DNA of 64,000 nt from Natrinema hispanicum (GCF_004217335.1 NZ_SHMP01000004.1:186001-250000); one strand, 5' to 3'. Positions 7,481 through 60,528 are shown, counted from the stretch's first letter. Program-made: numbers and translations. Notes: a model not told the origin generated them from the sequence alone.

Positions 7481-8955
7481 AACGCTTTAGCTCCAGCTCT
7501 TACACCAGTCGGGAAGTACCGAATATCGTGGTAGAGAACCTTCCTGTCGTATACGTAGTCTTTGAGATCGCGGCCACTCAAGCGATTGGAAAGGTCGATA
7601 CCCACCTGTTGAAGTTCATTTTCGAGGGTTGTCTGGACAGCATTAGCAAACCGAACCTTGGTTTGTTTTCGCTTCCAATTTAAGTCATCGCTCGGGCGAT
7701 CAAGAAGGTTCTCGCCGTCAAGAACAATGACTGTCTTGCCTTCAGGATCATTCTCCAGTTTCGGATTCGAGGTGAAGAGTCGGCGTATCGTCTCGGGTCG
7801 TTCACTGTGAATATTCCGATACTGAGGTCGATCTTCACGGGTCTCTTCAGAAGTGCAGTACTGAATATAGAGGCGCTCTCCCTGCACAGGTTCGACGAGC
7901 TCAAAATCTAAAATGGATCCATCAGATGGAGATGAGGCCCATTCAATATGCGTTTGATAATCGTACTCTAATCCGAGCGTCGTAAGAAGTTGTGCAATCG
8001 ACTTGTGGGCAATTCCTTCCTCAGGAATGGCGTCTAACTGAACCTCTTCTCCTTGTATCGTTACCGTCGATTTCGCCGCATGTGACTCATAGACTCCGTC
8101 CACAACATCGATGTCGTTCGGATCATACCGATCATCCTTCCACGTACTCATGAAGGATTCGTAGGTTGCTTCGAGTTCCTCGTCGTCTTGTATATCTCGC
8201 CATATCCGGGCAATTTCAGTAGTTTTGGCTTCGCCAACGATAAATTCCAAATCGCTGTACTGTTTCTCAGCTATCGACTTGCTGTATGAGTTGATAGTCC
8301 TAACATCGACACCCGTAATATCGAACGTCTCCTCAAGTTCCTTCTGCATCTCGTCACGTCCATTGCGAGTGAAAGTGAACGCTAATAGGTCACTCGCAGC
8401 TACGTCGTCAAATTCAGAGAGAATAAAGTGGACTCGGCGGCCGAATGTGGTTGTCTTCCCGGTCCCTGCAGCCGCATTCACTCGATTAAAGTTATCATTT
8501 GCGAAGATTGCCCGAAACTGTTGATGTGTATGGGTGTGGTCCGGATCATCGAAGAAGTCATTGAGTTCAGACCCGTGCTTCTTTTTCATGTGATCAATCC
8601 ACGCTGCATTGTACGTGGAACGACGCTCTATGAACTCCAATACCGCTTGAAGATCCTCCTCCAATGTCTTTGCTGCATCAAGAACCTGTTCTTCGTAGCT
8701 GCCACTTTCATCCAACAACGGTTCCAATCGCGCTAATGCTTCAGACGCAGTCTCGTATTTGTTCAAAGCTTCGTAGATCGTGAGGTAGTCCGTATACTCC
8801 TCAGTGTATTGTTTCTTCCATTTGATCAGCTTATTTGTCGTTTCAATGACTCCTGTTTCCCTATCAGTACCCTGAAGAACTACTTCTGGATCGAGTGATC
8901 CAGTCGTAGAACTTGAAGAGAACAACCCACGGATAAACGCCAAGACCCGGTTCAT
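7481..8955 (-). pseudogene. UvrD/Rep-family helicase, N-terminal fragment
   Basis: N-terminal half of the helicase whose C-terminal half is at 4633-6145. It has an N-terminal coiled region, then a Walker A NAAAGTGKTTTFGRRV near residue 165 and motif Ia LLAFTFTRNGRDEMQ. A 1A-type insertion with nuclease-like charged residues follows. The likely start is ATG at 8953-8955 (MNRVLAFIRG); the frame is open to 8985. After codon GCG at 7483-7485 the reading enters the IS and stops four codons later. It is a long haloarchaeal member of the family. Its cellular role, repair or defence, is not decided by sequence. Confidence 0.88.
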
Positions 8956-9287
8956 CGATACGCTGCCCGACGAACCTTCAAACAATAAGTATTTTCAAAC
9001 CAGAATATATTCGAGAAGGGGGCTATTCTATTCACCAAATTGTTATTTATTTATATTAATTATAAGTAAACTAAATAGACAACAGCACTAGCGGATGCAA
9101 CACTGCTGCAGCACACTCGAGCAGCGCCTAGCAGGGGAATTGGAGGATAGCGAGCTTATACAGGAGATAGTAACCTGTCGCTATCAGAACGAGCCGACGA
9201 TGATAAGCGAGGTTTATTTCACACCGTGATAGATAATCTAAGTGGTGATAGGATAGTTTAGCCGGGAGATAGATCGGAAATGAAGAA
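8956..9287. other. AT-rich intergenic region
   Basis: About 330 bp between the helicase start and the tRNA fragment. 9030-9085 is strongly AT-rich (TTATTTATTTATATTAATTA) and may hold the minus-strand promoter of the helicase. CTATC/GATAG motifs recur around 9147-9275. I see no coding frame. Confidence 0.4.
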
Positions 9288-9330
9288 TGCTCCGACAGGG
9301 ATTCGAACCCTGGTCATTGCCGTGAGAGGG
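9288..9330 (-). pseudogene. tRNA-Glu(CUC) 3' half, probable attachment site
   Basis: The minus strand reads the anticodon loop CTCTCAC, the 3' anticodon stem GGCAA, a perfect T arm CAGGG-TTCGAAT-CCCTG, the acceptor strand TCGGAGC and discriminator A. Upstream of the loop the sequence stops resembling a tRNA: there is no GCTCCGA 5' acceptor strand in the next 300 bases, so this is not an intron-containing gene. A 3' half of a tRNA gene is the product left when an element integrates into a tRNA gene. In that geometry the element would lie on the higher-coordinate side. Confidence 0.8.
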
Positions 9331-22749: not shown

Positions 22750-22900
22750 TGTCTTCCGTATCTACACCCAGTTCAGCAGCAATATTGAAACCCCGGTCGT
22801 CCTCATCGGAAAACACCGGGGAACGTCCACGTGAGGGGAGATCGCCGCACACCACGTTTGGTGTGTGTCAGTGGGTTTTGTTTGAATCGTAACATCACCA

Positions 22901-23338
22901 CCCACACCCCTCATTTCGAACGTAACCCCGTCCAAGCGGGAGGGGGAAGGTTACTGAATCAGTGAAAATTAGCATGCAGCCACGGCACCCTATTTAAACA
23001 GATGATATTTCAGAGGAGCTATTCACTAGAATGTACTTACACGTCTTCTAGGGCGTATTGTTGGCGTGCGTTTTTCCTTAACCAAAAAGTTTATATTAAT
23101 ATTATATAGTTGTAGTAGTATAGTAGTGTAGTAGTCTAGTTAGTGAGAGTGATCAAGATCACTTGCCAATAGCCAATTTGTTTCCGTCAGTCAAAAGCCA
23201 ATCTGAGGGCAAGCTGGAGCGGTTCTAATCCTATTTCGTGACAATTCTCACAACAAACAATCACTCTAATTTTGTCTGTTCGTTGGAGACCATGCTCTCT
23301 CAGAAGAGAAACGTTCGAAATGAGGGGTGTGTGTCCCC
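22901..23338. other. Candidate replication origin A (inverted ORB-like repeats around an AT-rich tract)
   Basis: CACACCCCTCATTTCGAACGT at about 22903-22923 (first 20 bases compared) is the reverse complement of ACGTTCGAAATGAGGGGTGT at 23311-23330, giving an inverted pair about 400 bp apart. Between them lies a very AT-rich stretch, 23060-23140, with TATTAATATTATATAG and low-complexity TAGTAG repeats. The right copy extends into GTGTGTCCCC. orc1/cdc6 begins at 23464, which is the usual haloarchaeal arrangement for an origin. Confidence 0.8.
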
Positions 23339-23463
23339 ACTCAAAACAGCCCAACGTCAGAGACGATCTCATGCTGAGGGCTTACTCCTTTATATGGCAG
23401 GTTACTACACAGTCTTACCGACCGACCGTTGAACACGTCTTCCAAAACATCCACTACTCACAA

Positions 23464-24696
23464 ATGGATATCTTCGAAACAAGGCGACCATTCCGGGATG
23501 ATTACAACCCTGGCAGAGTCGTTGCACGTGACGAGACAATCGACAAAATGGGAAGTGCCTTCCAAGATTTCGTGGATGGGTATCGTCCACCCGACGTTTG
23601 TATCTGCGGAGACTCCGGAATCGGAAAGCGAACAATCATCAAACACCTCCTCAAGGTACTCCAAACAAAGGTCGAGACGGAACTCGTCGTTACCACTGTA
23701 GACTGTGCCGAGCACAATACTATTTATAAAATTTACCTCGCACTCGCCAACAAAGTGTGTCCAGACCGATACCCGAACGGTACGAACCCGCTCCTCCTCC
23801 AAGAATCGATATTTCAGGAGATGAATGACCCTGATCGCACCCACTTCATCATTCTCGAACATTTAGAAGCACTGGGGCTAGAAGGCCCGCCGTTTAACGA
23901 CTTGCAACAGGCCAGATCCACTTACAGCGTCGAGAATACTGAATGTGGGTTCATCGGGATCAGCAATGAATCACGTATTCTTGGATATCTCCCAAAGGAC
24001 GTGGTACACAAATCACGGATGCACACGATTGAGACGTATCCGTACGACGCTCACCAGCTTCGAAGCATCTTGGAACTTCACGCGGAAATAGCGTTTGCCG
24101 ACGGTGTACTTTCGGAGAGCGTTATTCCGAAGTGCGCAGCAATAATCGCTCAAGAAACTGGTCAAGCGACAGAAGCGTTACAACTACTCGAACTTTCTGG
24201 CTATTTGGCGCTTCAATCGGAAGCCGAGCAAGTAACGGAAGATCATGTCTCGAAGGCGAGAAACTCCTTGATACAATTACAGGCGTATAATAAGTTCACT
24301 AAAGAACTAACAGCAAAAGAACAGCTCACTTGTGTAATAATAACCGCATACAATTTAGTGAACGGGACAGCAATAACTCCTGACGATATTTCCAGGCATT
24401 ACAGAGAAAGATGCAGATCGTTCAATCTTAATCAGGTTAAAATACGGCAGGTTCGAAACTACATTCAAGATCTCGATAACAAAGGGCTACTCGACTGCGA
24501 GGGATACAACGCAGGTCGTGGAGGCGGGATCCAGACGAAATACAAACTTTCAGTTCCACCAGAACCGATCATTCAAGGAGCCATCGCAACATCTGGGAGA
24601 TTCAAGAGACTGCTGCAACAACAAGACGTGTCGATTAACAAATTCACAGAGACAGAGGAAGGCATTGATTTCACCGCATTCTCATCTCGTCAATAG
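23464..24696 (+). CDS. Orc1/Cdc6-family replication initiator, diverged ATPase motifs
   Basis: A 410-aa protein of the archaeal Orc1/Cdc6 family, which binds ORB sites and opens the origin. It has the N-terminal block RPFRDDYNPGRVVARDETI. The Walker A is CGDSGIGKRT near residue 49-57 (canonical form GxxGTGKT). The Walker B region reads HFIILEHLEALG, without the usual acidic pair. A C-terminal winged-helix region follows (KQVRNYIQDLDNKGLL-like, near 330). The start at ATG 23464 places the ORB copy upstream of the gene; an open frame to 23272 would put the ORB inside it and is not used. ATP hydrolysis may be weak or lost. Confidence 0.88.
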   Translation: MDIFETRRPFRDDYNPGRVVARDETIDKMGSAFQDFVDGYRPPDVCICGDSGIGKRTIIKHLLKVLQTKVETELVVTTVDCAEHNTIYKIYLALANKVCPDRYPNGTNPLLLQESIFQEMNDPDRTHFIILEHLEALGLEGPPFNDLQQARSTYSVENTECGFIGISNESRILGYLPKDVVHKSRMHTIETYPYDAHQLRSILELHAEIAFADGVLSESVIPKCAAIIAQETGQATEALQLLELSGYLALQSEAEQVTEDHVSKARNSLIQLQAYNKFTKELTAKEQLTCVIITAYNLVNGTAITPDDISRHYRERCRSFNLNQVKIRQVRNYIQDLDNKGLLDCEGYNAGRGGGIQTKYKLSVPPEPIIQGAIATSGRFKRLLQQQDVSINKFTETEEGIDFTAFSSRQ

Positions 24697-24913
24697 ACCT
24701 GACGAAAGAAACTCTAAATGCCACACCGTCAAACCACAATCCGAACCACCAACTCGTTCGGCCGTGTCCTTCCTATCCTCGAATCGTGACTCCCAATTAA
24801 GCCGGGAGACAAGTACAACGTGCAACTACTCACCAACGCTGACGAACACCGTCTCAACGAACTACAAACGTCATAGTGGGACGTCCTCCAGAACCGTTCT
24901 CTGTGAACCGTCA

Positions 24914-24946
24914 CGGGCCACCGCGCCCGTGGCTTCCCGTGGATTA
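24914..24946 (-). ncRNA. Right-end / omega-RNA-like hairpin of the TnpB remnant
   Basis: On the minus strand directly after the TnpB remnant: CCACGGGAAGCCACGGGC, then a hairpin with CACGGGC/GCCCGTG arms. The same block forms the orphan end at 11071. It matches the position of the omega-RNA scaffold at the 3' end of IS605-type tnpB genes. Confidence 0.5.
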
Positions 24947-25492
24947 GTCGGACACACCCGCGACACCATCGGCGTGGTGACCTCTGGCGGTGTCGTGGGT
25001 CACAGTCGGCTGGTTCACACAGCCCGATGCCTGCCGTCGCAGCTTCCGCACATCGGGAAGCGTCTTGAGAGCAGGCACATGCCTCTCCAGTTTCGCCAAT
25101 CCCTTCTTGGCGATGTTGATAGCCGCGTTCCGGTCAGCGTGGTCTTGCCGCCCACAATCCACGCACTTGAATCGCTTCTTGTTCCGGTTTGCACGAGTTG
25201 TCTGCTCACACTCAGTGAGTGAACATGCCTGACTCGTGTATTCCGGGTTGATTTCGTCGGACGGAACCCCTTGGAACGCGGCTTTGTACGTGATGAACTT
25301 CTCCGTCTCTTCTATCCGGAACGTCACATGGGGTTTGTTCGACGGGGGGACGGGGGGTGTCCGCAACTCTCTGCCGGGGGTTGTGCTGCCACGTTTCCAG
25401 ATAGGAAGCTCGACTAGAAGCGATCCTCCGTGGAGCACATCATGAGGAAAGAGTGACTGAACGGTGAACTGCCACGTAAGATTCCTCATCAA
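24944..25492 (-). pseudogene. TnpB (IS1341-type) C-terminal remnant
   Basis: The C-terminal part of a TnpB/OrfB nuclease: EETEKFITYKAAFQGVPSDE, the zinc ribbon pair CSLTECEQ and CVDCGRQDH, then the RuvC-III motif ADRNAAINIAKKGLAKLE and a tail. The RuvC-I and RuvC-II parts are absent. The region upstream of about 25410 looks unrelated to the family. It is a truncated element on the opposite strand to the full-length tnpB that follows. Confidence 0.85.
25344..25369. repeat. G-rich inverted repeat flanking the tnpB element, left copy
   Basis: GGGGGTGTCCGCAACTC and its G-rich 5' extension correspond, in inverted orientation, to 27075-27099. The two copies bracket the full-length tnpB element. 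They could be remains of one inverted duplication or further origin-type sites (compare GGGGTGTGTGTCCCC at the ORBs). Confidence 0.55.
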
Positions 25493-25550
25493 GAACAGGA
25501 CTGGCTGCAGGTGCGTTTCCCTTCTATCTATCTTTGAACAGCGAGAGAAT

Positions 25551-25568
25551 CCCGGCGTTTACGCCGGG
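25551..25568. repeat. Hairpin at the left end of the tnpB element
   Basis: A perfect 7-bp stem CCCGGCG/CGCCGGG with loop TTTA, in the context GAGAATCCCGGCG. Such subterminal hairpins are typical of IS200/IS605 ends recognised by TnpA. It lies 100 bp before the tnpB start. Confidence 0.45.
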
Positions 25569-25669
25569 CGTGAATCGCGTCACTCGGGTACACAATCCAC
25601 AGTCGATGGCAGGCTGGATATTCAACGTGAATCCACACCACTAAGTTAGATTGTCTATATAGGCTATGT

Positions 25670-26920
25670 ATGGCGATTCAGGTTACTCGCACCTATGTTG
25701 GTTCCATTCAGAACCAGCGACAGGTCTGCGATGCCCTGGATTTGCTCGGAGACGCCGCCTCGAAGATCTGGAACGTTGCACGCTGGACCGCCGACCGCAT
25801 CTGGGATGAAATCGGCGAGGTACCCGATGAAGGGGCGCTGAAGGCATACATGAAGAATCAAGCGTGCTGGAAAGACCTGAACGCACAATCCAGTCAGAAA
25901 GTCATCGAAGAACTCTCTGACGCTTTCCAGTCGTGGTTCGATCTACGACAGAACGACGAGACGGCGAATCCGCCCGGCTACCGCAAACACGGTGGCGAAC
26001 GACCGCGCAGTACGGTCACGTTCAAAGCAGACGGCTTCAAACACGATCCCGAGAACAACCGTATCCGACTTTCGAAAGGGTCGAACCTGAAAGAGAATTG
26101 GTCGGACTTCATCCTCTGTGAGTACCAGACCCGGCCAGATGTCAACCTCTCAGAAGTCGCCCGAGTGCAGAACGTTCGCGCCGTCTGGAACGGTGACGAG
26201 TGGGAACTGCACTTCGTCTGTAAAGTCGACCTCGAAACCAGCGACTCGGCAGGCGACGGGGTAGCAGGCATCGACCTCGGCATCACGAATATCGCCACAG
26301 TCGCATTCCCCGACGAATACGTCCTGTACCCCGGCAACTCGCTCAAACAGGACAAGCACTACTTCACCCGAGCCGAGTACGACACCGAAGGTGAGAACGG
26401 CCCGTCAGAGAAGTCGATGTGGGCGCGTCGGAAACTCGCAGACCGCGAGACGCATTTTTACCACGTTCTCACGGACACCATCATCACCGAATGTGTCGAA
26501 CGCGGTGTTGGCACGCTCGCAGTGAGTTGGCCCGAAGACGTTCGAGAGTCCGACTGGGGGAAGACGGGGAACAAGAAGTTGCACTCGTGGGCGTTTGACC
26601 GCATCTACCAGTACCTCGCATACAAAGGCGAGATTCGTGGCGTCGAGGTGCTGAAGGAGAACGAGTGGGAGACGTCGAAGACCTGCTCGCACTGTGGCGA
26701 TGCGACGAAGTCGAACCGTGTCGAACGTGGCCTGTACGTCTGTGAGTCGTGTGAGTTGGTAGCCAACGCGGATTGTAACGGGGCGGAGAACATGCGCCAG
26801 AAGATAACTCCGAGTCCTCACGGTGAGGATAGGAGTAACGGCTGTGTGGCACAGCCATCGGTACACCTGTTCGACCGCGAGAGCGGGACGTTCCGCACGA
26901 GAGAACAGGTCGTGTCGTAG
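25670..26920 (+). CDS. tnpB: TnpB RNA-guided nuclease (IS1341-type)
   Basis: A 416-aa TnpB, normal length, so likely intact. RuvC-I Asp is in GIDLGITN (D202). RuvC-II is LAVSWPEDV with the candidate Glu at 289, a less common context for it. The zinc ribbon has CSHC (339-342) and CESC (358-361). RuvC-III Asp is in ANADCNGAEN (D368). In this family the protein uses an omega-RNA from the element's right end to cut DNA. No tnpA is present, so the element would be immobile alone or moved in trans. A structured RNA candidate follows directly at 26935-27040. Confidence 0.93.
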   Translation: MAIQVTRTYVGSIQNQRQVCDALDLLGDAASKIWNVARWTADRIWDEIGEVPDEGALKAYMKNQACWKDLNAQSSQKVIEELSDAFQSWFDLRQNDETANPPGYRKHGGERPRSTVTFKADGFKHDPENNRIRLSKGSNLKENWSDFILCEYQTRPDVNLSEVARVQNVRAVWNGDEWELHFVCKVDLETSDSAGDGVAGIDLGITNIATVAFPDEYVLYPGNSLKQDKHYFTRAEYDTEGENGPSEKSMWARRKLADRETHFYHVLTDTIITECVERGVGTLAVSWPEDVRESDWGKTGNKKLHSWAFDRIYQYLAYKGEIRGVEVLKENEWETSKTCSHCGDATKSNRVERGLYVCESCELVANADCNGAENMRQKITPSPHGEDRSNGCVAQPSVHLFDRESGTFRTREQVVS

Positions 26921-26934
26921 ACCAGCAAATATCC

Positions 26935-27040
26935 CACCCGCGGTACGGGAAGCCGCGCCGTCGTCGGGCGTAGCCCGACTGCCTGAGGGATCTTCGATCC
27001 CTCTCCGTTTACGGCGCGGAGGATGTCACTTTGGGAACTA
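26935..27040 (+). ncRNA. Omega-RNA (right-end RNA) of the tnpB element
   Basis: Immediately after tnpB the sequence folds into a closed three-way structure. A 9-bp outer stem pairs CCGCGCCGT (26953-26961) with ACGGCGCGG (27011-27019). Inside are two hairpins, TCGGGC-GTA-GCCCGA (26964-26978) and GAGGGATC-TTC-GATCCCTC (26985-27003). The short block CGGGAAGCC before the stem is shared with the other two ends in the window. The guide would be the flanking bases after about 27020-27040. Confidence 0.75.
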
Positions 27041-27074
27041 TTCCACTACTTGCTTTCCCTCAATACATGGTGAG

Positions 27075-27099
27075 GAATTGCGGACACCCCCTGTCCCCC
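27075..27099. repeat. G-rich inverted repeat flanking the tnpB element, right copy
   Basis: GCGGACACCCCCTGTCCCCC matches the reverse complement of the left copy at 25344-25369 with two differences. Both copies are followed, in their own orientation, by AAAYCCC. Confidence 0.55.
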
Positions 27100-27252
27100 T
27101 CCACCAAATCCCGCTCAAGAAGAGACTCCTCCCTTTGAAACCCTAAGTGTTTAGGTGACTTTGACAGCGAAGGAGTCTCCGTCTTGCCCGTGAGTGACGA
27201 GTGTACCGACACTAGACGGATGCCGCAAGGTTTGACCAAAGGTGGTTCAGAT

Positions 27253-27701
27253 GAGACACACACCCCACGTTTCCGCTCCAAACATCTTTGAGAGTCCCCC
27301 TACCGCGAGAGAACAAGAGAGTGGAAAAATATTGCCGATCAGGGTTCCTGTCTGATTAAGAGATATTGTTTTGGAACTTTATTATATATTTTATGGTATA
27401 GGTAATAAATGCGCGTATTATATAATAATAGAAAGACGTTGTAAACACCCTTAGATGGGATAATAATAGAAGAATTAGTATAGGGAGGGATGGGACAATC
27501 TCCCATCAATTATGTCTTATTTATACTCTCTTCTGAAAGTCATCTTCAAAAGACACTCTCTGTAGATGAACAAGGCGAATATCTCGGGGCTTGCCCCGTG
27601 GCGATCTACAAAGAGAAGTGGTGATCTGAGGTTGATTTCTCTCTTCAGCCAGCTCCACCGCTCTTGTGAACTTTTGGAGCGGAAACGCGGTGTGTGTCCC
27701 C
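27253..27701. other. Candidate replication origin B (inverted ORB-like repeats around an AT-rich tract)
   Basis: ACACACCCCACGTTTCCGCT (within 27257-27282) is an inverted match of TTTGGAGCGGAAACGCGGTG (27673-27692), differing at one base of the overlap. Each copy continues into GTGTGTCYC. Between them, 27310-27540, the DNA is extremely AT-rich (TTATTATATATTTTATGG, TATTATATAATAATAG). The core GGAAAC-G-GGTGTGTGTCCCC resembles the right ORB of origin A. The rest of 26921-27936 holds the omega-RNA, the G-rich repeat and no gene. Confidence 0.78.
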
Positions 27702-27936: not shown

Positions 27937-29193
27937 ATGCCTTTCATCGCGGTTGATCCCGTTGATAATCGTCCGCGAATCCCGATTGGCGTCGGTGACG
28001 ACGAAGAGGTTCAATGCCCTGTCTGTGACGATCCCCTTCGTGTTCGTGAAGGACCTTCTACTGCCCGTCATTTCTACCACCCACCGGACCACTCTTGCAG
28101 TGGTGAATCCGCTCTCCATCTCCGAATGAAATCGATCGCTGTTGAGAAACTCACAGACAAGTACCCTGACGCATCGGTCCACGTTGAGTTCGTCACTGAC
28201 GAAGTACCGCGTCGTGCTGATGTCTTCGTAGAATTCGATCAGCCACAATTCCCTTCCGGGAAGGGAATCGCGGTTGAGGTACAGTACCAGAATGAACAGA
28301 AGGATCTCACGGAGACGACTGCCAGCTACCTTAGCGGCGACATCAGTGTGATCTGGCTCTTTGAGGAGAATTACGTCGGCACCCGTCCTGAGTACGACGA
28401 CGTCAAACTCCCTGACCCGATCCCGGTCTGGCCGTACAGCATCTCTCACGGTGAGGCGTCATCGCCAGACTCGTCAGCTGGGGACTACCTGGGTATCACT
28501 GAAGCCGACCTGATTGCAACTCTCCCGAATCACGTCGACGATCAAGTTTCGCTGGCAGAATTCCCGGGTGCGTCGGATACAGACGAGGAGTCCGAAGACC
28601 TCCCAGAGTGGACCCGTGAGAAAGAACTCCATTTCAACCTCTCAATAGAGTCTCCAGGTGTTCGAGAAGTCTACAAATCATGGTTAGACGGCAAAATCCA
28701 GAGCAAAGGCAGTGAACACCAAGACGAAATCGAGGAGCGCCGAGCAATAGTGAAGTTAGAAGACCGGCTCACCTATTTCGCCGAGCGCTTTAGCAAAGGG
28801 CCTGGAGAGACATTTGAATTCAGTATCGGTGTCCGCCACTCTAGCAGTGGTCAGTTCACTGCCCGAAAGTTCGTGGACGGTGTGGAACGGGAACTCATGT
28901 TCCCTATCGGCGACGATGAGGTTGACTCGTTCACCGAGTTCGTGCTGGAATTGTGCTATACATTAGAGTGTACGCGCGCCTCGACGTCGAAAGAACAAGC
29001 AGTGAATCAGCCAGCCGAATCCAACCTCAGCACGCTCTCATACGCAATTTCCCACACAGGAACCGAGACGGTTACCGTCGAGCTGAGCAGTACCACAGAA
29101 ACCATGACTCTAAAATTCTGCCCGCAACAGATCCAACCGCTTGTCGATCTCTGTGCCAAAGTCCGACTCTGGTACGACTACTTGAGATTATAG
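27937..29193 (+). CDS. CoiA-like zinc-finger PD-(D/E)XK nuclease
   Basis: A 418-aa protein with a CoiA-family N terminus: zinc motif CPVCDDPL, then ARHFYHPPDHSC, ESALHLRMKSIAVEKL, and the nuclease core RADVFVEF followed by GIAVEVQYQNE and the TASYLSGDISVIWLF strand-helix. D and E-x-Q match the PD-(D/E)XK active site of the family. The C-terminal 200 residues, about 215 on, are acidic and unrelated to known CoiA. It is the first gene of a plus-strand cluster with a 61-aa protein and an SMC-like ATPase. A TATA-like AAAATATATG lies about 30 bp upstream of the ATG. It probably acts as the DNA-cutting effector of a defence module; that role is inferred. Confidence 0.75.
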   Translation: MPFIAVDPVDNRPRIPIGVGDDEEVQCPVCDDPLRVREGPSTARHFYHPPDHSCSGESALHLRMKSIAVEKLTDKYPDASVHVEFVTDEVPRRADVFVEFDQPQFPSGKGIAVEVQYQNEQKDLTETTASYLSGDISVIWLFEENYVGTRPEYDDVKLPDPIPVWPYSISHGEASSPDSSAGDYLGITEADLIATLPNHVDDQVSLAEFPGASDTDEESEDLPEWTREKELHFNLSIESPGVREVYKSWLDGKIQSKGSEHQDEIEERRAIVKLEDRLTYFAERFSKGPGETFEFSIGVRHSSSGQFTARKFVDGVERELMFPIGDDEVDSFTEFVLELCYTLECTRASTSKEQAVNQPAESNLSTLSYAISHTGTETVTVELSSTTETMTLKFCPQQIQPLVDLCAKVRLWYDYLRL

Positions 29194-29239: not shown

Positions 29240-29425
29240 ATGTCAGACGAACTTCTCAATGTCCACGAGGAGGTCAAGGAGACGTTCCGGGATAGGATTC
29301 AAGACAACGACAGTATTTCTGACCCCGTGACGGATTCTATTATTAGTTTAACTGATGAGGAAATGACAGATTCCGGGGCTATTCAGAGCGTTGTTGAGGA
29401 GGCATTAGCAGATGAGGATTCATAA
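29240..29425 (+). CDS. Small acidic protein (61 aa) between nuclease and SMC-like ATPase
   Basis: A 61-residue acidic protein (MSDELLNVHEEVKETFRDRI...) predicted mostly helical. Its stop codon lies 14 bp inside the following SMC-like gene, so the two are translationally coupled. No family was recognised. Its position and size suggest an adaptor between ATPase and effector, as in three-component ABC/SMC defence systems; this is inference. Confidence 0.75.
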   Translation: MSDELLNVHEEVKETFRDRIQDNDSISDPVTDSIISLTDEEMTDSGAIQSVVEEALADEDS

Positions 29426-31898
29426 GATCCATATCCGAAACTTCCGTGGGATCCGTGACTTCGAGACAGAATTCCGACGAAGTGGGGCTCTGTTTTACGG
29501 ACCAAACGGGGCAGGGAAGAGTAGCGTTCTACAGTCAATCGAATTCCTACTGACAGGGTGTGTACGTGACTTAGAAGGATCTGGCACAGGGCGGCAGGAT
29601 CCGGAGAAGCATATACGTCACAGAGGTGTTGATCCAAGCGAGAGTTGGGTGACTGCCACGTTTTTGGATGGTGGTGAAGAGATCAAGATAAAACGTACTG
29701 TGGGTAATTCAGACCAGTTGGAAATCGTTTCGGACCATTCTACACTCCCGTCGAAATTGAAGACGCAGCAGACTGCGATGCGTCTCTCTCAGAATCGCCT
29801 ATCACGCGACGAGGTTCTGGATTTTGTTACGACTTCACCAGGTTCGCGTGGAGATGCTCTAAATGAGATTCTCAGGGTGCAGAACACAGAGGACAAACGG
29901 AAAGCGTTCGCAAAGGCCGTTAGTGACCAAAAAAGCCAGATAGACTCGTTACAGGATGATTTGAAGAAGCAGCGTGATGATTTCTATGATGCTCTTGAGG
30001 ACACGGTGTCAAACAAAACTGATAACCAGGTGATGGTTGATGCGGACTCTGATGCATTAGAGGTTATCAATACTCTACGCTCCGAATACGAGGTTAGTTC
30101 GTTATCCGAATTGGACGAAAAGGAGTTTACGGCAGGGATTACCAAACCGACCAGTTATTCGCGTACCCATCCGCTGGATCGAGGAGATCTTCGCTCAGAG
30201 TTTGAAGTACTTGAGGAATGGTTTAGCTGGGAAGGTGAGATGGCTCTTGCAGATCGTCAGAAGTTGCGGGATAAACTGGAGGAATTTGAACAGAATAGCG
30301 AACTTCGTCGGGATGTCCGAGCGCAGAATCTTTTGGAGCAAGGGGAAGAGCTTCTCACAGAATTTGAACCAGATTGTCCACTCTGCTTGTACACATGGGA
30401 CGATGCTACAGAACTGAGAGAACGAATTGAGAAACGGCAAGACAGTGCCAGCCACGCAGAAGAACTTCGGGGAGAGATCGACGATCTGAGGGATGAACAG
30501 CTTGAACGGATAAAAGAGGTACAGAACGCAGCCAACACATTGATCAAAGTATTCGAGGATGAAGATCCTGAGTCATACCCTCAGCCGATTGCACAATGGA
30601 CGCGAGAGTTGGGAACGATTGAGGCTGAGCTACGTGAGTATCGGAAACAGTTAGAGGCGGGTGATGTTTTGGAAGTCCCGTTTCCTTCGCTTGGGAGGGA
30701 GGAGTTAACTGCCAAACTGTTGACTGCCGACCTCGAAGAAGCTGTGGTAGAAATGAAGGCACAGTGGGAGAGTGAACAAGAGGGTAACGAGGGAATGAGC
30801 TCGTATCGTGTTTTGGCTGTCGCTTACGACCGATTCTCCCGCTATTCGGAAATTCAAGAAGACATCAAAAAAGCAGAGGAAGTTCTATCGACGCTAGAAA
30901 CGGTCAATAATGAATTCCGAACCGCGAGACAACGTCATTATGACAGGACTTTAGAGAAAATTCGAGAACGGTTCGAAGAAATCTACTGCGATCTTCACAC
31001 CGATGAAGAAGTGAAAGATTTCTCTGCGGATCTGAAGTCAACGGATCACGGAGTAAAATTCAGGACATCATTCCGAGACTCAGACACCCACCGCCCGAAT
31101 CTCGTCTACAGCGAAGGGCATCAGGATAGTATGGGGTTGGCGCTCTTCTTAGCGATGTGTGAGGTGGTAGGAGGTGAGGAACTTGAATTCCTCTTGCTTG
31201 ACGACGTTGTCACGTCGATTGATGCGGCACATCGCTCGGCTATCGCCAATCTCCTTGGGAACGATATTGGGGGAGATTTCCAATTGATAATGACGACGCA
31301 TGATAAGGTCTGGGCTCGACGTCTACGGACGACGAAATACATTCAGAACACCATTCACTTTGCCGATTGTAAGTTTCAGGCTGGCGTTCACCACAGCGAA
31401 GATATCGCTAACCCGTGGGGAATGATTGACTATTACTTAGATCGAAATGAGATTACTGCTGCGGCAGCTTGGGGACGAAAAACTGCTGAGTGGTTCTGTA
31501 GTAAGGGTTGCGAGCAGTTCGGCGCAGAACTGCCTTACGGAAATCGAGAGAATTTAGGATTACAGGACTACTTTGATGGGATTGTTGGCGAGCTAGAGTT
31601 TCTGTTAGAGCGTGGAGACGTGGATGATGAGACCATCTTCGGCGAGTCGGAACTTAGCGATACTGACGAAATGGTCGGTAATCTACGACGACTAAAAAAC
31701 GAACATATCTGGGGTCTAAACGAGAATATTCACTATAACGAAGAGTTCGAAGCAAGCTACTCTCCTGACGATCTCAGGGAAGACATAGCGGTATTTGATC
31801 AACTTTATAATGTCCTCCACTGTCCAAACTGTAATAATTGGCGTCAGCATGGACGAGATGGTGTCTACTGCTCGTGTGGCACAATCTGGAAAACATAG
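29412..31898 (+). CDS. SMC/Rad50-like ABC ATPase with C-terminal zinc ribbon
   Basis: An 828-aa ATPase. It has the N-terminal MRIHKIHIRNFRGI, Walker A YGPNGAGKSSVLQSIEF, coiled-coil arms (about 165-260 and 285-430), and a CPLC motif at the apex like a Rad50 zinc hook. A second coiled coil follows, then the ABC signature SEGHQDSMGLALFLAM, Walker B FLLLDDVVTSIDAAHR and an H-loop MTTHDK. After the ATPase core there is an additional 170-aa domain ending in a zinc ribbon (CPNC...CSC). The closest architecture is SMC-like subunits of defence systems such as Lamassu. It overlaps the 61-aa gene and is convergent with the HRAMP operon. Confidence 0.85.
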   Translation: MRIHKIHIRNFRGIRDFETEFRRSGALFYGPNGAGKSSVLQSIEFLLTGCVRDLEGSGTGRQDPEKHIRHRGVDPSESWVTATFLDGGEEIKIKRTVGNSDQLEIVSDHSTLPSKLKTQQTAMRLSQNRLSRDEVLDFVTTSPGSRGDALNEILRVQNTEDKRKAFAKAVSDQKSQIDSLQDDLKKQRDDFYDALEDTVSNKTDNQVMVDADSDALEVINTLRSEYEVSSLSELDEKEFTAGITKPTSYSRTHPLDRGDLRSEFEVLEEWFSWEGEMALADRQKLRDKLEEFEQNSELRRDVRAQNLLEQGEELLTEFEPDCPLCLYTWDDATELRERIEKRQDSASHAEELRGEIDDLRDEQLERIKEVQNAANTLIKVFEDEDPESYPQPIAQWTRELGTIEAELREYRKQLEAGDVLEVPFPSLGREELTAKLLTADLEEAVVEMKAQWESEQEGNEGMSSYRVLAVAYDRFSRYSEIQEDIKKAEEVLSTLETVNNEFRTARQRHYDRTLEKIRERFEEIYCDLHTDEEVKDFSADLKSTDHGVKFRTSFRDSDTHRPNLVYSEGHQDSMGLALFLAMCEVVGGEELEFLLLDDVVTSIDAAHRSAIANLLGNDIGGDFQLIMTTHDKVWARRLRTTKYIQNTIHFADCKFQAGVHHSEDIANPWGMIDYYLDRNEITAAAAWGRKTAEWFCSKGCEQFGAELPYGNRENLGLQDYFDGIVGELEFLLERGDVDDETIFGESELSDTDEMVGNLRRLKNEHIWGLNENIHYNEEFEASYSPDDLREDIAVFDQLYNVLHCPNCNNWRQHGRDGVYCSCGTIWKT

Positions 31899-38310: not shown

Positions 38311-41300
38311 ATGACTGACGAGCAAACCAAAGAGATTCGGCGGCGTTTAGATGAGGAACTCTCCCTGGATGAGTTTGAACGCGATTACCGATCCACTGGG
38401 GAGGCAGCGACACAGTTCTTTCAGGACCTCTTCGTTCAGGTGCTCAACTTCGAAGAAACGACTTCGCCACTGGGTGACGCAACTTGGCAGGATATTCCTG
38501 TTCACGAGTGGCCGAACACAGCCCGGGCAAACGCTGCTCGGCTCTTCGCCAAATCGGGGAACTTCCGCGTCATCTACGTCGAACTGGAGAAGCTGACTCG
38601 GACAGCTGAACGGAACGCTGTCCAGAGCCTCACGCGGTCGGACAGAACAAGCGGATGGGCCATTGACGGCTCCTTCCTGACTGTATTTCACGCGCCGGAC
38701 GAGGACATCTGGCACCTCGTCACTCCCTATGAGGAAGGCACGGACGACATCACTACTGGTCGCCCTGTGCTGCGCAGGTACACGCTCGGTGAAGGCGAGA
38801 CCCACCGCACCGTTGCAAATGCGCTGTCGAGTATGGACGCTAGCAAGGGTCGGCTGGCAGAGCGCATCGACGAGGCGTTCCGAGTCAAGCCCGTTACCGA
38901 GGACTTCTACGAGAACTACAAGAACGCCTTCGACACGCTCAGTAAGGAACTTCGCCGGAAAGGTCTAGAGATCGAGGATGCAGACCGGTACGCGCATACG
39001 ACGCTCAATCGGTTGATGTTCTTCTACTACCTCCAGAAGAAGGGCTGGATCGGTGACCGGAAGGACTTCGTCCGCTGGTTCCACGAGCAGTACGAGAAAT
39101 CCGACGAGGAGGATGTATTCCACGAAAAGTGGCTCTCGGCGCTGTTCTTCGAGGGTATGAACAGCCCGAAAGGTGGAAATATCAACGTGGATCTTCCGTC
39201 CGATGTCAGGTCTGCCATTGCTGGACTCCCATATATGAACGGTGGGCTCTTCCAGCCGACTGAGGAGGACGAACGCGACACGTTCCTGTCTGACTCCGCG
39301 CTAAAGTCGGTGATCGAAGAGTTCCTCGAACAGTACAACTTCACGGTTACCGAGGAGAGCCCCTACGACATCGATGTCGCCGTCGATCCGGCGATGCTCG
39401 GGAAGATTTACGAGTCCCTGATTGCCGAGCAGGAACGCGGTGAGGCAGGCATCTTCTACACGCCTCGTGTCGAGGTTGATCTGATGTGTCGCATGGCTCT
39501 GTACGAGCAGTTCTGCGACCATGCCAATGATCTCGATGCTGAAGGGAAACAGCGGATTGTCGAGTTCATTTTCAGCGAGCCACAGGACTGGGACGCAGAG
39601 AGTGCCGGTGAAACAGAGCAACTGGAGAACATCCTCCACAAACTGCGTATCGTTGATCCCGCCTGTGGTAGTGGTGCGTTCCTGGTGGGAATGAAGCAAG
39701 TGGTCACCGAACTGTACCGGAAGCTCGGTACGACCCCGGACTATCACCTCAAAGAGCAGATAATCAACGAGAACCTGTACGGCGTCGATATCAAAGACTG
39801 GGCGGTCCGGGTTGCTGAGTTCCGGCTTTGGCTTTCGCTCGTTGAGGGCGAGGAGCAACTCCCAGACCAGCGCCCAGTGCTACCGAATTTCTCCTTCAAG
39901 CTCAAGGTTGGTGACAGCCTGATTCAGAAGCTCGATGGAGAATTCGTTTCACTGGATACGCTCACGCGAACGCTCGATGGAGATACTGCTGGCCTCCTCA
40001 CGGAACTGAAAGAGCTGAAGCGTGAACACTTCGAAGGTGAGACTGACCGAACTCAAGAGATCGAAGAGAAGCAGGTGGAACTCCTCAAAAACCATGTCGA
40101 CGGTCTCATCGACAATCTCTCAAAGGACGGTTCTCAACAGACTCTCTTCGGAGACACAAAGGACGACCAAATCGATGACGACGTCCAAGAGCGTATCGAA
40201 GAGCTCAAAGAAACTCGTGACGCGATTGATGAGGCTGGGGCGGCTGGGTTCTTCATGTGGGACATCGACTTCTCCGACGTGATGGTCGAGGGTGGATTCG
40301 ACATTGTCATAGGAAATCCACCATACGTCCGTCAGGAAGACATCATTGACCAAGGAATTCATCCAGAACGTCTTGATGAGATGGATGGTGGAGAGGTCAA
40401 GAAGTTGAAAAAGGAATACAAGAATGACCTCGTCCAGTATGTCGAGGAAACATTTGACATCAGCGCTTACAAGCGAAGCGACATTTATGTCTATTTCTAT
40501 TTCAAAGGTCTGGAAGTTCTCCGAGAGAATGGAACACTCTCATACATCACCTCTAATTCCTGGCTTGACATCGGGTACGGAAAGCGCCTTCAACAGGCTC
40601 TATTAGAGAAAGCAAGTCTCTCGACGGTGATGGGAAATATCAGCGAGAAAGCATTCGAAGATGCTGACGTAAATGCCTACATCACGATGGCAAATAAGAG
40701 CCAGAATGGCATTCTTGCTGGTGAGACAAAGTTCACGAGAATCAATTGTCCCTATGTGGACCTCAATTACGCGTCTGCCTTCAAGTCGATCTTCACTACG
40801 AACGAAGCAGATACTGAAGAGTTACTGTTCAATGAAGAGCCAGCAAGGGTCTATGAAGAGGGAGATATCCGAACACTCACGTTTTCCCATGCAGGCCTGT
40901 GGCGACTCGGGGGTGGTTCTACCCGAGATCTAGATGACGATTCTGGGCCTGTTTATTCGGAAGAATCCGGTTTTGGGCCAACCAAAGTTATAGCAAACCA
41001 CGATCTATCTCAAAATCTTCAACTACCGACCGGTTCCTATAGCATGGGTCTATGGGGACGGTTTGTTGATGCGCCAACTCTCTACTTTGAAATCTGGCGG
41101 GACGCTGGCGATCAGTTCACGACCATCCGCGATCTCACAGACGATGGGGGCGATCTAACTCGCGGAGTCACGAGTGGTGCGAACAAGTATTTCTTTGTTC
41201 CACGACCCGGAGAGGACAACAAGTACTTTACAGCAGACTATAACGGTGATACCGGGGAGCTTGTTCTCACGCACAAGGACAGTAATCGAACAGCTCGGAT

Positions 41301-42198
41301 TGAGCCAGAATACTGGATGCGGCCGCTAAAAGAGATTCCGGAGGACTACCAGGACCAGTTTGATTGCCGTTATGAAACAGATGATGGGACTGAGATGGTC
41401 CCCAATCTCGTGCTAGTAAAGAATCGAGAAATCAAAACTAGCCCGATTGAGCCAGCCCACCTGAGTAGTGTTTGGATTCGGATTGACGATGACAAAGCAA
41501 CGCTTGAGCAAGACGGAAGGAATGCGCTAGACTACGTTGAGCTTGGAGAGGCCGAAATCTGGGGGCGGGATTCTGACAAGAGTCTCTCCTCCCGGACTAC
41601 ATTCAATAGTCGAGATCCGTGGTATATGCAGCCCACCGTGTCCGACCCCTATATCCTACTAACTCGCTACGTGAACGCAAAGTACCAGTTCCATTTCAAT
41701 CCGTGTGCATTCCCAGTAGCAGATAACTTCTACTATCTCTCCACCTCTGAGGAGTTCGATCCAGCCTACCTTGCCGGTTACCTCAACTCGACGCTTGGCT
41801 GGTTTATGGCTGAAATTTCGAGTCGAAGCTGGACCAACGCTCTCAAATTCGATAAGACGGAGTTCATGGAACTTCCAGTCGTGGACGCCAAGGAACAAAC
41901 ACAGTCTACTGCCGGTGAGGCCGTTGAGAATCTAATGGAGCGCGATCTTGAGGACGTCTTTGTAGAGTTAGGTGGGTACAACCCAAGTGACGTGACGATT
42001 GAGAGTGTGAAGGAGGATCGAGTTGATCTCGACACCCCCATCTTTAATGAGTTAGATCTTACCGACAAGCAGCGGGAACGTCTCTACAAAGAGATGGTGA
42101 CTCTTGTCCGAGATCGACTTATGCGACAGCCCGATGAGAATCCATCGTTGTGTGAGACAATCACTGAACACAACTCGCAATACGACTACTCCCGCTGA
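38311..42198 (+). CDS. Eco57I-type adenine-specific DNA methyltransferase / type IIG-like
   Basis: A 1295-aa protein. The N-terminal 250 residues include FRVIYVELEKLTRTAERN, a possible but unproven nuclease-like segment. The methyltransferase core has motif I DPACGSGAFLVG (near 450) and the catalytic motif IV IGNPPYVRQED (near 670), as in N6-adenine enzymes. The C-terminal half contains a target-recognition-like region (LWRLGGGSTRDL... YLAGYLNSTLGWFMAE). It is followed on the same strand by a PLD-SNF2 helicase, with a TBP gene in reverse between. The pairing recalls methylase-helicase pairs in DISARM and BREX, but drmA, drmB, pglZ and brxC are absent here. Confidence 0.88.
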   Translation: MTDEQTKEIRRRLDEELSLDEFERDYRSTGEAATQFFQDLFVQVLNFEETTSPLGDATWQDIPVHEWPNTARANAARLFAKSGNFRVIYVELEKLTRTAERNAVQSLTRSDRTSGWAIDGSFLTVFHAPDEDIWHLVTPYEEGTDDITTGRPVLRRYTLGEGETHRTVANALSSMDASKGRLAERIDEAFRVKPVTEDFYENYKNAFDTLSKELRRKGLEIEDADRYAHTTLNRLMFFYYLQKKGWIGDRKDFVRWFHEQYEKSDEEDVFHEKWLSALFFEGMNSPKGGNINVDLPSDVRSAIAGLPYMNGGLFQPTEEDERDTFLSDSALKSVIEEFLEQYNFTVTEESPYDIDVAVDPAMLGKIYESLIAEQERGEAGIFYTPRVEVDLMCRMALYEQFCDHANDLDAEGKQRIVEFIFSEPQDWDAESAGETEQLENILHKLRIVDPACGSGAFLVGMKQVVTELYRKLGTTPDYHLKEQIINENLYGVDIKDWAVRVAEFRLWLSLVEGEEQLPDQRPVLPNFSFKLKVGDSLIQKLDGEFVSLDTLTRTLDGDTAGLLTELKELKREHFEGETDRTQEIEEKQVELLKNHVDGLIDNLSKDGSQQTLFGDTKDDQIDDDVQERIEELKETRDAIDEAGAAGFFMWDIDFSDVMVEGGFDIVIGNPPYVRQEDIIDQGIHPERLDEMDGGEVKKLKKEYKNDLVQYVEETFDISAYKRSDIYVYFYFKGLEVLRENGTLSYITSNSWLDIGYGKRLQQALLEKASLSTVMGNISEKAFEDADVNAYITMANKSQNGILAGETKFTRINCPYVDLNYASAFKSIFTTNEADTEELLFNEEPARVYEEGDIRTLTFSHAGLWRLGGGSTRDLDDDSGPVYSEESGFGPTKVIANHDLSQNLQLPTGSYSMGLWGRFVDAPTLYFEIWRDAGDQFTTIRDLTDDGGDLTRGVTSGANKYFFVPRPGEDNKYFTADYNGDTGELVLTHKDSNRTARIEPEYWMRPLKEIPEDYQDQFDCRYETDDGTEMVPNLVLVKNREIKTSPIEPAHLSSVWIRIDDDKATLEQDGRNALDYVELGEAEIWGRDSDKSLSSRTTFNSRDPWYMQPTVSDPYILLTRYVNAKYQFHFNPCAFPVADNFYYLSTSEEFDPAYLAGYLNSTLGWFMAEISSRSWTNALKFDKTEFMELPVVDAKEQTQSTAGEAVENLMERDLEDVFVELGGYNPSDVTIESVKEDRVDLDTPIFNELDLTDKQRERLYKEMVTLVRDRLMRQPDENPSLCETITEHNSQYDYSR

Positions 42199-42203
42199 TC
42201 GGT

Positions 42204-42746
42204 TTAGAAACTATTTTCGAGAATATCGCGCAAGGATTGGAGGACTGAACAAGCGACTTCTTGTTTGGCTGTACCGACAACTAACACCTTTCCGCTTGAG
42301 AAAATCAGAAGAGTTGCCTCATACTCCGGGGATCGGTATACAAGTCCCGGAAATTGTTCAGGCTCATACTCTGTGTACTCTAAACCAAGACGAACAGCGA
42401 GTGTTTCCAGCTCCAATCCTTGGTTCACTTCATCCATAAAAACAGCCGTCTTCTCCTCAAATTCAACGTCACCAGTCTCAAAGCCGATGTCATCAAATAT
42501 TTGGAGCAGTTGGTTCACTGCCTCGGTCAATTCTTCGTGTCCTAGTGCTCCACGAATTTGAAACGACCCAGTCCGATAAATACTGAAGGCGGGACTATTC
42601 TCCCCGAATTTTACGGTTACAATCCCTGTGCTTTGAAAATTTACGTCTAGACTCTCCCCGACTTCATTTCTAATCTCATCAACAAGAGTTTCCAAGTCTA
42701 TCTCCTTGCCTAAGGAGCCACTTCCCATTATACTTACAATCTTCAT
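42204..42746 (-). CDS. Divergent TATA-binding protein (TFIID-like)
   Basis: A 180-aa protein with the archaeal TBP C-terminal repeat: LAVRLGLEYTEYEPEQFPGL, VYRSPEYEATLLIFSSGKVL, then VVGTAKQE. The N-terminal repeat is strongly diverged (SIMGSGSLGKEIDLETLVDE, then FSIYRTGSFQIRGA) and lacks EPEQFPGLVYR. General TBPs are about 185 aa with two matched repeats, so the size fits. It lies convergent to the methyltransferase (5-bp gap) and divergent from the helicase gene. It may be a promoter-selective TBP for the island; haloarchaea often have several TBPs. Confidence 0.85.
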   Translation of the reverse strand: MKIVSIMGSGSLGKEIDLETLVDEIRNEVGESLDVNFQSTGIVTVKFGENSPAFSIYRTGSFQIRGALGHEELTEAVNQLLQIFDDIGFETGDVEFEEKTAVFMDEVNQGLELETLAVRLGLEYTEYEPEQFPGLVYRSPEYEATLLIFSSGKVLVVGTAKQEVACSVLQSLRDILENSF

Positions 42747-42905
42747 TACTTTTGAATCCTACTGGCTAAGACAAATGCTCGTCGTGCTACTATGAAACAT
42801 TTTTGAGGTGGCTAGTTCCAGTGTAGTGTATGTCTCCGTCACTCTCACTCACAGTTTATGATACCAAGCGTATAAACGGTGCCTTCTCCCGAGAAATTCT
42901 GAACC

Positions 42906-45900
42906 ATGAGTAACGACAATTCAATCGGGATCATCGACAACCGTCGCTACTCCCACCTTGATGAGGTCCTAAAGTCAGGGCTCGAAAGCCAGGGTGTTGA
43001 CCGGATTCGAATTGCTGTCGGATACCTCTACATGAGCGGCTTGAAGCGACTCCGCCCGGAGCTGGATAAATTCCTTGACAACGGGGGGACACTCCAAGTT
43101 CTAATGGGGAATCCAGACCAGCAAGGGTTGGACGAACTCATAGAGGCTCACCAGAATCTCCGTCTCACCGGCACGAAATTCAAGCAGTCACAGAACGTCA
43201 AGTGGAGTGAGCGACCGGAAATTCGTGCCGAAACTGCGAACAATTACTCGAATCAACTGCTCTACGAAAACCCCACTGCGGAGAATCAGGCCTTCTTCAC
43301 GAAGCTGATTGACTGGCTGGAACAGGGACGTATCCAGCCTAAGTTGTACCTTCAGGAGCGGTTCCACGCGAAGGCGTACCTCTTCGAGAAAGACGAAGGA
43401 GACATCTTTACGCCCAAGGATGTCGGCGTCGTCGGTTCGTCGAACCTCAGCCTCAGCGGCCTCCACAGCAATACGGAACTCAACGCGCCGGTCTACAACG
43501 AGAAAGTCACGCAACTGAAGGAGTGGTTCGATGACTTGTGGGACGACGCCGTTGAGTTTGACGCGGATCTGCTGGAAGCGTTCGAAGACTCCTGGGTCTC
43601 GAACAACCCCGGACACATCTCAACGGACGACGAACCACCTGCACTTCCGGGTGATTCACTCCCAGACGACACGACTGAGACACTCCGAGAGGTCAGCAGT
43701 GGTACTGGTCTCCCTGCACCGTATCTAGTGTACGCGAAGATTCTCTATGAGCTCTACAAGGAGACGCTGGAGACTGCTGAGGACTATCTTCAGTCATTTG
43801 ACGTGTACGATGACCTCTACGAGTTCCAGAAGTGGGCAGTAAACCGTGGGATCAGAATCGCCAACAAGTACGATGGTGTCCTCGTTTCCGACGTCGTCGG
43901 GATGGGGAAGACGTTCGTCGGCCTCGGCCTCCTCGAACACTTCCATGCCCGAAATCGCCTCCGTGGCAACAAGGGGAAGATGCTGATCATCTCTCCGAAA
44001 CATCTCAAGCCGATGTGGGAGCGGATGGTCAACAAGCAGTACAACTTCAACGCGGAGGTTATCAGTCTGGGGATGGTGTCGAAGGAGGATTTCCACGAGA
44101 CGCTCTTGGAAGAGCACGACGACACGACGGTGTGTCTCGTAGATGAGGCGCATCACTTCCGGAATGATGATACGCATCGTTACGACAATCTGCAGTCGTT
44201 CCTTCCGACGGTTAATCAGACGATTCTCCTGACTGCGACGCCGTATACGAAGAGCGCGTGGGACGTCTACAATCAGATCAAGTTGTTCCACATCGAGGAT
44301 ATCACGCCGATTCCGATTACGCCGCCGAACCTCTATGACTTCACGCAAATGGCAGAGAACGATGAGACGGATCTCTCAAACCTTCTGAGCCACGTGATGG
44401 TGCGTCGGACTCGCCAGGACATCATCGACCAATATGGTGAGGAGGATGAGGATGGCCGGCTCTACCTCCAGATGGCTGGTGAATGTCGGTACCTCCCAGA
44501 TCGGCACTTACAGACGGTGGATTACAATCTGCACGAAACGTATTCGACGGCTGACGGCGTCAATAATTCACTCTATGACGCGATTGTGGAGACGTTAGAG
44601 GACCTCACGTTCGCTCGGTACTCGCTAGGTCAAGAGGAGTACCTGAAAATAGAGTACGCGAATCAGGACCCGTATCAGAATCTCTCCTCGATGGGGAAGA
44701 GCATTCGTGGGTTGATGAAGTCCAACCTTCTGAAACGGTTGGAAAGCAGTGTTCACGCCTTCTACACATCGCTCACCCGGATGCTTCGGAGTTACCGGAT
44801 GTTCCGGGATCTCCTCGACGAAGGAACGGTTGCTGTCGGGAGCGATGTATCTGAACTCATCAACAGTGGAGAGCAGATCGACTACATCCTTGATGAGATC
44901 GACGAAATGGTCGAGGAGGGGGAGTATGCGGCGTATCAAACGGAGGCCTTCCATCTTGATGAGCTGAAACGCGATCTTGAGACTGATATCCAACTCCTGG
45001 CAGATCTACAAGCCACGCTGGAACCGTTCCATCAGGACATCCAGCATGACTACACGATGGATGATAAGGTCGAACAGCTTCGGCAGCTTCTCGGGAATCT
45101 CCGTGTGGGATCCCATGATCTTCTTCAGCGCGGCGACCGTGCTGAGAAGTTGATCGTCTTCACGCAGTTTACTGACACGGTGGAGTATCTGGAAGCTGCG
45201 TTTGAGCAGTTCCAAGATCGGGGACTACTCTCCGATGACGTTCGGTTTGCCAGTGCCACAAGTGACACTTCGAACGTGGAGAGTATCATCCAACGCTTCG
45301 CTCCTGAGGCAAATGATGCACGGGACGAAATCGACCCGAGTGACGAGATAGATGTCCTATTTGCGACCGACGTGGCAGGGGAGGGGGTCAATCTTCAGGA
45401 TGCGAATTTAGTCATCAACTACGACCTGCACTGGAATCCCCTGCGTCTAATTCAGCGAATCGGTCGTGTTGACCGCCTCGGAAGTGGGCACGACGACATC
45501 TACGCGCTCAACTTCCTACCGGAAACGGAACTTGAAGAGGAACTCGGTATCGTTGACCGCGTCGAGTCACGTGTCCAAGAGATCAGTAGTGTTCTCGGTG
45601 AAGACGGGGAGATACTGAGTCCGGAAGATAACGTGAACCGGTCGTACATGGAGGATATCTACGCTGAAGAGGATATCGAGAAAGTCGAAGATGACGTGAA
45701 TGAGATCATTGGGAGCGACGATCTTATTGGTCCAGCAAGTAGTCTTCAGGACCTCAAACAGAAGTCTCCGGATCTACTCGACTGGTTGGATGACCGCGAC
45801 GGAATTCGAAGTGCGATGGAGTGGGATCGAGAGTACGACGGCATCGTCATTGTCTATCGGCAAGGAGACTACACGACCCCGTACCTCGTTACGTTCCCAA

Positions 45901-46412: not shown

Positions 46413-46463
46413 GCAGGCAGGAGCGCGCTGAACTTCAAATATCATCACGCGCAATTCGGAGGT

Positions 46464-46814
46464 GTGACTCAGTTGGAACAGCTTCCCACGACAGACTCTG
46501 GGCACGTTGTGAAACGTCATGCAACCGACTGGTTGGAAGGCCTCGACGAAGCCACTGAACAGAAAATTCGAGAATCAGTAGTCGCAAAGCCCAACGGTTT
46601 CTCTGGGAGTAAATACGCAACCGAGATTTCCGACATCCGCGTCACGGGCTCACCCGAGTTTGTGGAGGCAGTCGGAAGTCTATTCAAACCGCTCTTGCAG
46701 TTTGAAGGGGAAGAAACAAGATTAGAGATCAACCTTCAGCGAACCGAAGACCGGGACATGGGGGAACTGACCGATAACTACGCGCTTTATTTGTCTGTAG
46801 CCGAACGAGGGTAG
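46464..46814 (+). CDS. Uncharacterised 116-aa protein
   Basis: A small alpha/beta protein (LEQLPTTDSGHVVKRHATDW, then FVEAVGSLFKPLLQFEGEET) with no recognised family. The reading frame opens at GTG 46464, but the Shine-Dalgarno-like GGAGGTG at 46458-46464 suits the TTG at 46473 better. It is on the same strand as the helicase, 51 bp downstream, so probably part of that unit. Bases 46815-47108 downstream show no gene. Confidence 0.6.
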   Translation: MTQLEQLPTTDSGHVVKRHATDWLEGLDEATEQKIRESVVAKPNGFSGSKYATEISDIRVTGSPEFVEAVGSLFKPLLQFEGEETRLEINLQRTEDRDMGELTDNYALYLSVAERG

Positions 46815-49167: not shown

Positions 49168-49246
49168 TCCCAGGCAGCTCACGTCCAGCTTCGGAGTTGA
49201 TCTCTCCCGGGGAAGGATCATCATCCAGCTCTGTTACGGTTTCTAC

Positions 49247-58969: not shown

Positions 58970-58971
58970 TG

Positions 58972-60519: not shown

Positions 60520-60528
60520 GGGTGTCGG

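Follow-up and report, generated by a model that had tools for sequence, protein, structure and literature searches.

Two candidate replication origins, A and B, in a 64,000-nucleotide stretch of Natrinema hispanicum contig C2 (the window) are probably Orc1/Cdc6-type modules of different ancestry, joined in a mosaic, plasmid-like element integrated at tRNA-Glu, with B having lost its initiator and the Orc beside A carrying a degenerate ATPase. Of these results, the degenerate-ATPase Orc most deserves further pursuit. In the current understanding, archaeal origins are controlled by Orc1/Cdc6 acting as an ATP-on, ADP-off switch, and a degenerate clade that has retained its cognate ORBs offers a natural test of whether initiation requires that switch or whether certain Orcs act purely as regulators. 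The orphan origin B is a natural test of how an origin behaves after initiator loss, and bears on the collecting of dormant origins by haloarchaea. It is already known that several origins per replicon are normal in these organisms (PMC3528665, PMC3936714, PMC4595724), that Cdc6-ORB pairing is specific and that Cdc6 can act in trans in H. hispanica (PMC3936714), and that H. mediterranei has recently acquired origins that are dormant (PMC4595724).

Table 1. Features of the two candidate origins and of the integrated element, in window coordinates
Feature	Position	Strand	Remarks
Left att copy, 44 bp	9287..9330 (C2:195,287-195,330)		Left edge of the 76.3-kb element; exact match to tRNA-Glu(CTC), 3′ part, C2:271,633-271,676
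Origin A left ORB	22900..22923	minus	Minus-strand sequence ACGTTCGAAATGAGGGGTGTGGGT
Origin A AT-rich tract, candidate unwinding element	23056..23185		AT scan
Origin A right ORB, ACGTTCGAAATGAGGGGTGTGTGT	23311..23334	plus	orc start codon lies ~130 bp downstream
orc1/cdc6-family gene, 410 aa from this ATG	23464..24696	plus	Walker A GDSGIGKR, Walker B IILEHLE
Truncated TnpB remnant, C-terminal part	24944..25492	minus	Profile searches
TnpB RNA-guided endonuclease gene, between A and B	25670..26920	plus	Profile searches
Origin B left ORB	27258..27282	minus	Minus-strand sequence TTTGGAGCGGAAACGTGGGGTGTGT
Origin B AT-rich tract, candidate unwinding element	27310..27488		AT scan
Origin B right ORB, TTTGGAGCGGAAACGCGGTGTGTGT	27673..27697	plus	Inverted-pair search

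Inverted ORBs around two AT-rich tracts

The first-pass annotation had placed an inverted pair of repeats, about 400 bp apart, at each of A and B, and both pairs were found at the positions given, with a spacing of ~390 bp (Table 1). The 24-nt arms of A are paired at 23 of 24 bases (96% complementary) across a spacing of 387 bp, and the 25-nt arms of B at 23 of 25 (92% complementary) across 390 bp. A full ORB has two halves, one specific and the other a G-string with TGTG after it, and at both loci inverted ORBs with the G-string surround an AT-rich tract, consistent with the proposal of two Orc/Cdc6-type candidate origins. To call these tracts extremely AT-rich overstates the case, as the spacers are 59-60% AT overall with cores of ~78%; in the 64-kb window, only these two tracts and positions 8964-9104 reach at least 70% AT over 100 bp.

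We scanned the entire 1.07-Mb contig for inverted pairs that exceeded a set score at a spacing of 120-900 bp, a procedure that sees compact pairs and misses widely spaced or direct ORBs such as those at orc L010. The scan returned 11 pairs, and its mirror-image control returned none. Six of the 11 bear the ORB signature (A, B, C2:263,932, two at ~C2:618 kb, and one at C2:882 kb), and every one save B adjoins an orc with a matching ORB, leaving B as the only compact ORB pair on the contig without an orc of its own. Sites resembling GGGGTGTGTGTCCCC were observed three times against an expectation of 0.12, and no further copy of the A or B repeats occurs within three mismatches elsewhere in the 4.26-Mb genome, which has about 21 orc genes. 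Cumulative GC skew over the full contig does not switch clearly at either locus, a weak indication that contig replication is dominated by neither A nor B; the genome is in 11 contigs, and the replicon structure is therefore not certain.

Origin B and the Orcs that might read it

The specific half of the B ORB, GGAGCGGAAACG, matches the ORBs of a canonical Orc clade (L029/L037), whereas the orc nearest to B belongs to another. Six sites that surround L029 in a congeneric genome differ very little from the B ORB, which also matches sites before L037, on a Halorubrum ezzemoulense plasmid; BLAST with B alone recovered the L037 site and, in Natrarchaeobaculum, one of L004 type, each beside an orc gene. 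In the tree, L029 and L037 form one clade (100/100) with L008 as its sister. No member of the L029/L037 clade was found in the present genome, where the best matches to the L037 Orc, at 48-49% identity, lie at C2:883 kb and C2:618.7 kb. Neither tblastn nor a six-frame profile search detected an orc or orc remnant beside B (24.7-32 kb); the idea of an orc pseudogene there was rejected, the only hits being P-loop cross-matches to a RecF/SMC-like gene at 29.4 kb. Two further leads were set aside: a B-type match in another genome (G012), treated as chance as it lies inside a coding frame with no inverted partner, and a viral source of the origins, as viral contigs contain no exact B-type ORB.

We suggest that the B initiator gene was lost during transposon rearrangement of the region, and its loss through these rearrangements is plausible. 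An origin that has lost its initiator would be dormant, or would work only if a related Orc from elsewhere were to bind in trans, the best candidates being the genes at C2:883,029 (L008) and C2:618,731 (L004). The stronger proposition, that one of these chromosomal Orcs acts in trans on B and makes it a functioning origin, is possible, and we regard it with some doubt. Haloarchaeal Cdc6 proteins can act in this way (PMC3936714), the ORBs at B are those of the sister clade of L008, and the ORBs of L008 and L004 share much of the B sequence. Their specific halves, however, differ from that of B (CAGCGGCACCG and TTTCACCGGAAACACG), and the pairing specificity seen in H. hispanica (PMC3936714) speaks against such an exchange. 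An Orc whose own ORB is not quite the same could still recognize B: of the 21 positions in the B-type consensus, the L008 and L002 sites depart at 3.

It is improbable that B is a sink of ORBs titrating a related Orc rather than an origin. Titration by an ORB-rich region, oriC2D, is known in Haloarcula hispanica (PMC3936714), but oriC2D comprises 11 ORBs in 722 bp beside its own cdc6, whereas B is one inverted pair, and that pair surrounds an AT-rich tract in the layout of an origin. We give very little credence to the proposal of the first-pass annotation that one origin was duplicated or split, leaving A and B as copies with a common ORB family and one Orc for both. The two do have the same architecture and a similar spacer length, and their right ORBs both run into GTGTGTGTCCCC, as had been noticed; yet the architecture and the G-string/TGTG half recur at most orc loci of this genome, and sharing of GTGTGTGTCCCC therefore says little. 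All that the A and B ORBs have in common is the G-string/TGTGTG half, general to haloarchaeal ORBs. Their specific halves are unrelated, each matching ORBs of a different Orc clade, with specificity here inferred from linkage, and A and B are therefore two modules and not copies; the shared ORB family thus falls away. Least credible of all is that the repeats are transposon ends or chance, for although the interval between the two origins contains transposon genes and an unrelated inverted pair (25345-25369/27075-27099), the A and B sequences recur beside orc genes in other genomes and the mirror-image control found no pairs.

We thus favor the reading of B as a module of separate ancestry whose initiator has been lost. 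In being acquired and likely silent in its host, the oriC4-cdc6H origin of Haloferax mediterranei (PMC4595724) would be comparable, but it has an adjacent cdc6 with inverted ORBs and B has no cdc6. The arrangement at A and B had also been thought unusual; two different candidate origins adjoining one orc/cdc6 gene have, however, already been described at the Hla_3512 locus (Wu 2012, PMC3528665, Fig. 3). That locus likewise has two ORB families, separate AT-rich tracts, and one orc, and its second ORB, AACAGCGGAAACAGTGGGGTG, resembles that of B. Its two origins share the intergenic region that adjoins the orc, whereas here B is set apart from the orc by a TnpB element and 2.6 kb, and the Hla_3512 Orc has canonical Walker motifs where those of the A Orc are degenerate. 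A truncated orc (L164:3552-4337, Halorubrum lacusprofundi pHLAC01) lies beside "origin II" of Hla_3512, and no such remnant is present at B. This truncated second orc may account for the two-origin case of Hla_3512 by decay, as proposed for B.

Several features of the surroundings of B are recorded here in their own right. Within the B spacer, ~40 bp at 27558-27603, containing the palindrome CGGGGCTTGCCCCG, has 80-88% matches, mostly intergenic, in several haloarchaeal plasmids, and is perhaps a transposon-end remnant inserted in B. The start of a CoiA-like gene (27937-29193) lies 240 bp from the right ORB; this gene has an 83% relative in the DL31 plasmid phalar01, near which no origin was found. 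Downstream of it is the RecF/SMC-like ATPase gene (29412-31898), with weak matches to LmuB/PtuA-type defence ATPases.

Degenerate Walker motifs in the Orc beside origin A

The protein encoded beside A scores above cut-off with PF22703, PF09079, and TIGR02928, indicating a Cdc6 lid and a C-terminal winged helix, and almost the whole of it can be aligned with 2qby and 2v1u, both DNA-bound structures. Its Walker motifs (Table 1) depart from those of an initiator with intact Walker A and Walker B (DE): Arg replaces the Thr/Ser of GxxGxGK[TS] in Walker A, and the Asp-Glu of LDE[IV]D is lost from Walker B. Six relatives, 35-48% identical, have GKR together with LENL, VENM, or LNNI, whereas the other haloarchaeal Orcs displayed have canonical Walker motifs, except for the divergent L019 (Walker B LDDVN). 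The degenerate Orcs of these seven genomes, from three families of the order, form a single clade in the tree (100/100). Reading frames are intact and dN/dS is 0.11-0.19 among the three closest members of the clade, which is under purifying selection; the degenerate orc gene is therefore maintained. Viral contigs and phages yielded no relatives of the A Orc, and the open-access literature yielded no description of an Orc clade that lacks the Walker residues and has conserved ORBs, which is not proof of novelty.

The ORBs of A travel with this clade. The specific half, ACGTTCGAAATGAG, goes with the adjacent Orc, and the ORB core CGAAATGAGGGG adjoins six of the seven degenerate-clade orcs, including the genes for the closest relatives of the A Orc in G094, G046, G171, G199, and G310, with the variant GCGAAATGGGGG beside the seventh (G260). 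In a search of 392 genomes of the order, the strict form of the A repeat, ACGNNCGAAATGAGGGGTG, occurs with zero mismatches in five, all of which have the degenerate Orc clade, and with one mismatch in the two other carriers of that clade. A-like ORBs one mismatch from the strict form (ACAGACGAAATGAGGGGTG) occur as well around orcs of a canonical, L010-related clade, and the A core is therefore not exclusive to the degenerate clade. Origin A adjoins an orc/cdc6 whose clade carries the same ORB, and the sequence supports its status as a candidate orc/cdc6-adjacent replication origin. In having a lid and winged-helix Orc and inverted G-string ORBs around an AT-rich tract directly upstream of the gene, A resembles the ori-cdc6 modules of haloarchaea; it differs in that its clade lacks the Walker A Thr/Ser and Walker B Asp-Glu, as B differs in having no orc. 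The A Orc would bind the two A ORBs and control A, and the right ORB presumably also sits over the promoter of the A orc itself.

With its degenerate Walker motifs, the A Orc probably does not cycle between ATP and ADP like ordinary archaeal Orcs, and on motif evidence it is about equally likely to be a permanently "on" initiator or a pure ORB-binding regulator. Regulation has a precedent in Orc1-2 of Saccharolobus islandicus, a non-initiator member of the family that regulates genes; in Orc1-2, however, the Walker motifs are retained and both ATP binding and ATP hydrolysis are required (PMC9738581), whereas the A clade has lost those residues. As for initiation, a Saccharolobus Walker B mutant that binds ATP and does not hydrolyse it still recruits MCM (PMC12141716). 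We advance only tentatively the idea that the degenerate clade may still initiate at its own conserved ORBs without ATP hydrolysis and perhaps free of the customary ATP/ADP control. Canonical Orcs are likewise encoded in all six other carrier genomes, and thus none of the genomes seen forces an initiator role on the degenerate Orc. On the draft contigs of G171, G199, G310, and G260, the degenerate orc is the only full-length orc, and G171:C17 and G310:C52 also bear a partial one. A short open frame directly after the degenerate orc in two of these genomes (L165:8307-8816 in G171 and L167:10998-11501 in G310) matches only the Orc C-terminal half.

The element integrated at tRNA-Glu

Copies of a 44-bp att repeat identical to the 3′ part of tRNA-Glu lie 76.3 kb apart as direct repeats, and a tyrosine integrase gene (Phage_integrase PF00589) lies beside the tRNA gene. 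We therefore assign the intervening DNA to a mobile element of 76.3 kb integrated at tRNA-Glu, of which the right edge and the integrase are outside the window. Its GC content is 0.50-0.61 over most of its length, compared with ~0.63 outside, in keeping with the contig profile, which is mostly 62-64% GC and falls to mostly 50-61% in a stretch at ~180-271 kb. The element contains A, B, and, third, a complete orc with inverted ORBs of its own (L018). The earlier statement that only one orc is present, beside A, is accurate within the window and does not extend to the element, as L018 (L031:14335-15687; C2:264,335-265,687) lies 14 kb past the right end of the window. It is next to a resolvase gene, and its inverted ORBs read ACACCGTTTTCGAAATGAAAT.

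The tnpB element that had been noted between A and B is present, and consists of a TnpB gene and a truncated TnpB. The 25-nt arms of the inverted pair that lies there, GGGGGACGGGGGGTGTCCGCAACTC, are 1.7 kb apart and flank the TnpB gene; this pair is unique to this spot in the genome, and its orientation is unlike that of an ORB pair. Besides the resolvase, the 76.3-kb element carries several restriction/defence-type genes and a prokaryotic Argonaute. A defence-type cluster at window positions 38311-52167 includes a Type IIG-like methylase, a PLD/SNF2 helicase, and GmrSD-type genes, and the Argonaute gene (window 56231-63165; pAgo model 1138 bits) lies beside DEAD/MZB helicase and RNase H-like/HhH nuclease genes. 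Elsewhere in the window, at 4633-8985, a UvrD-type helicase gene is split in two by a DDE transposase gene (6275-7453). Elsewhere in the genome, two orc loci on contig C5 (292 kb), L016 and L017, have identical scores and inverted repeats and lie 186,289 bp apart on the same strand. The assembler may have gone twice around a circular plasmid here, which could also inflate the contamination figure of 5.38%.
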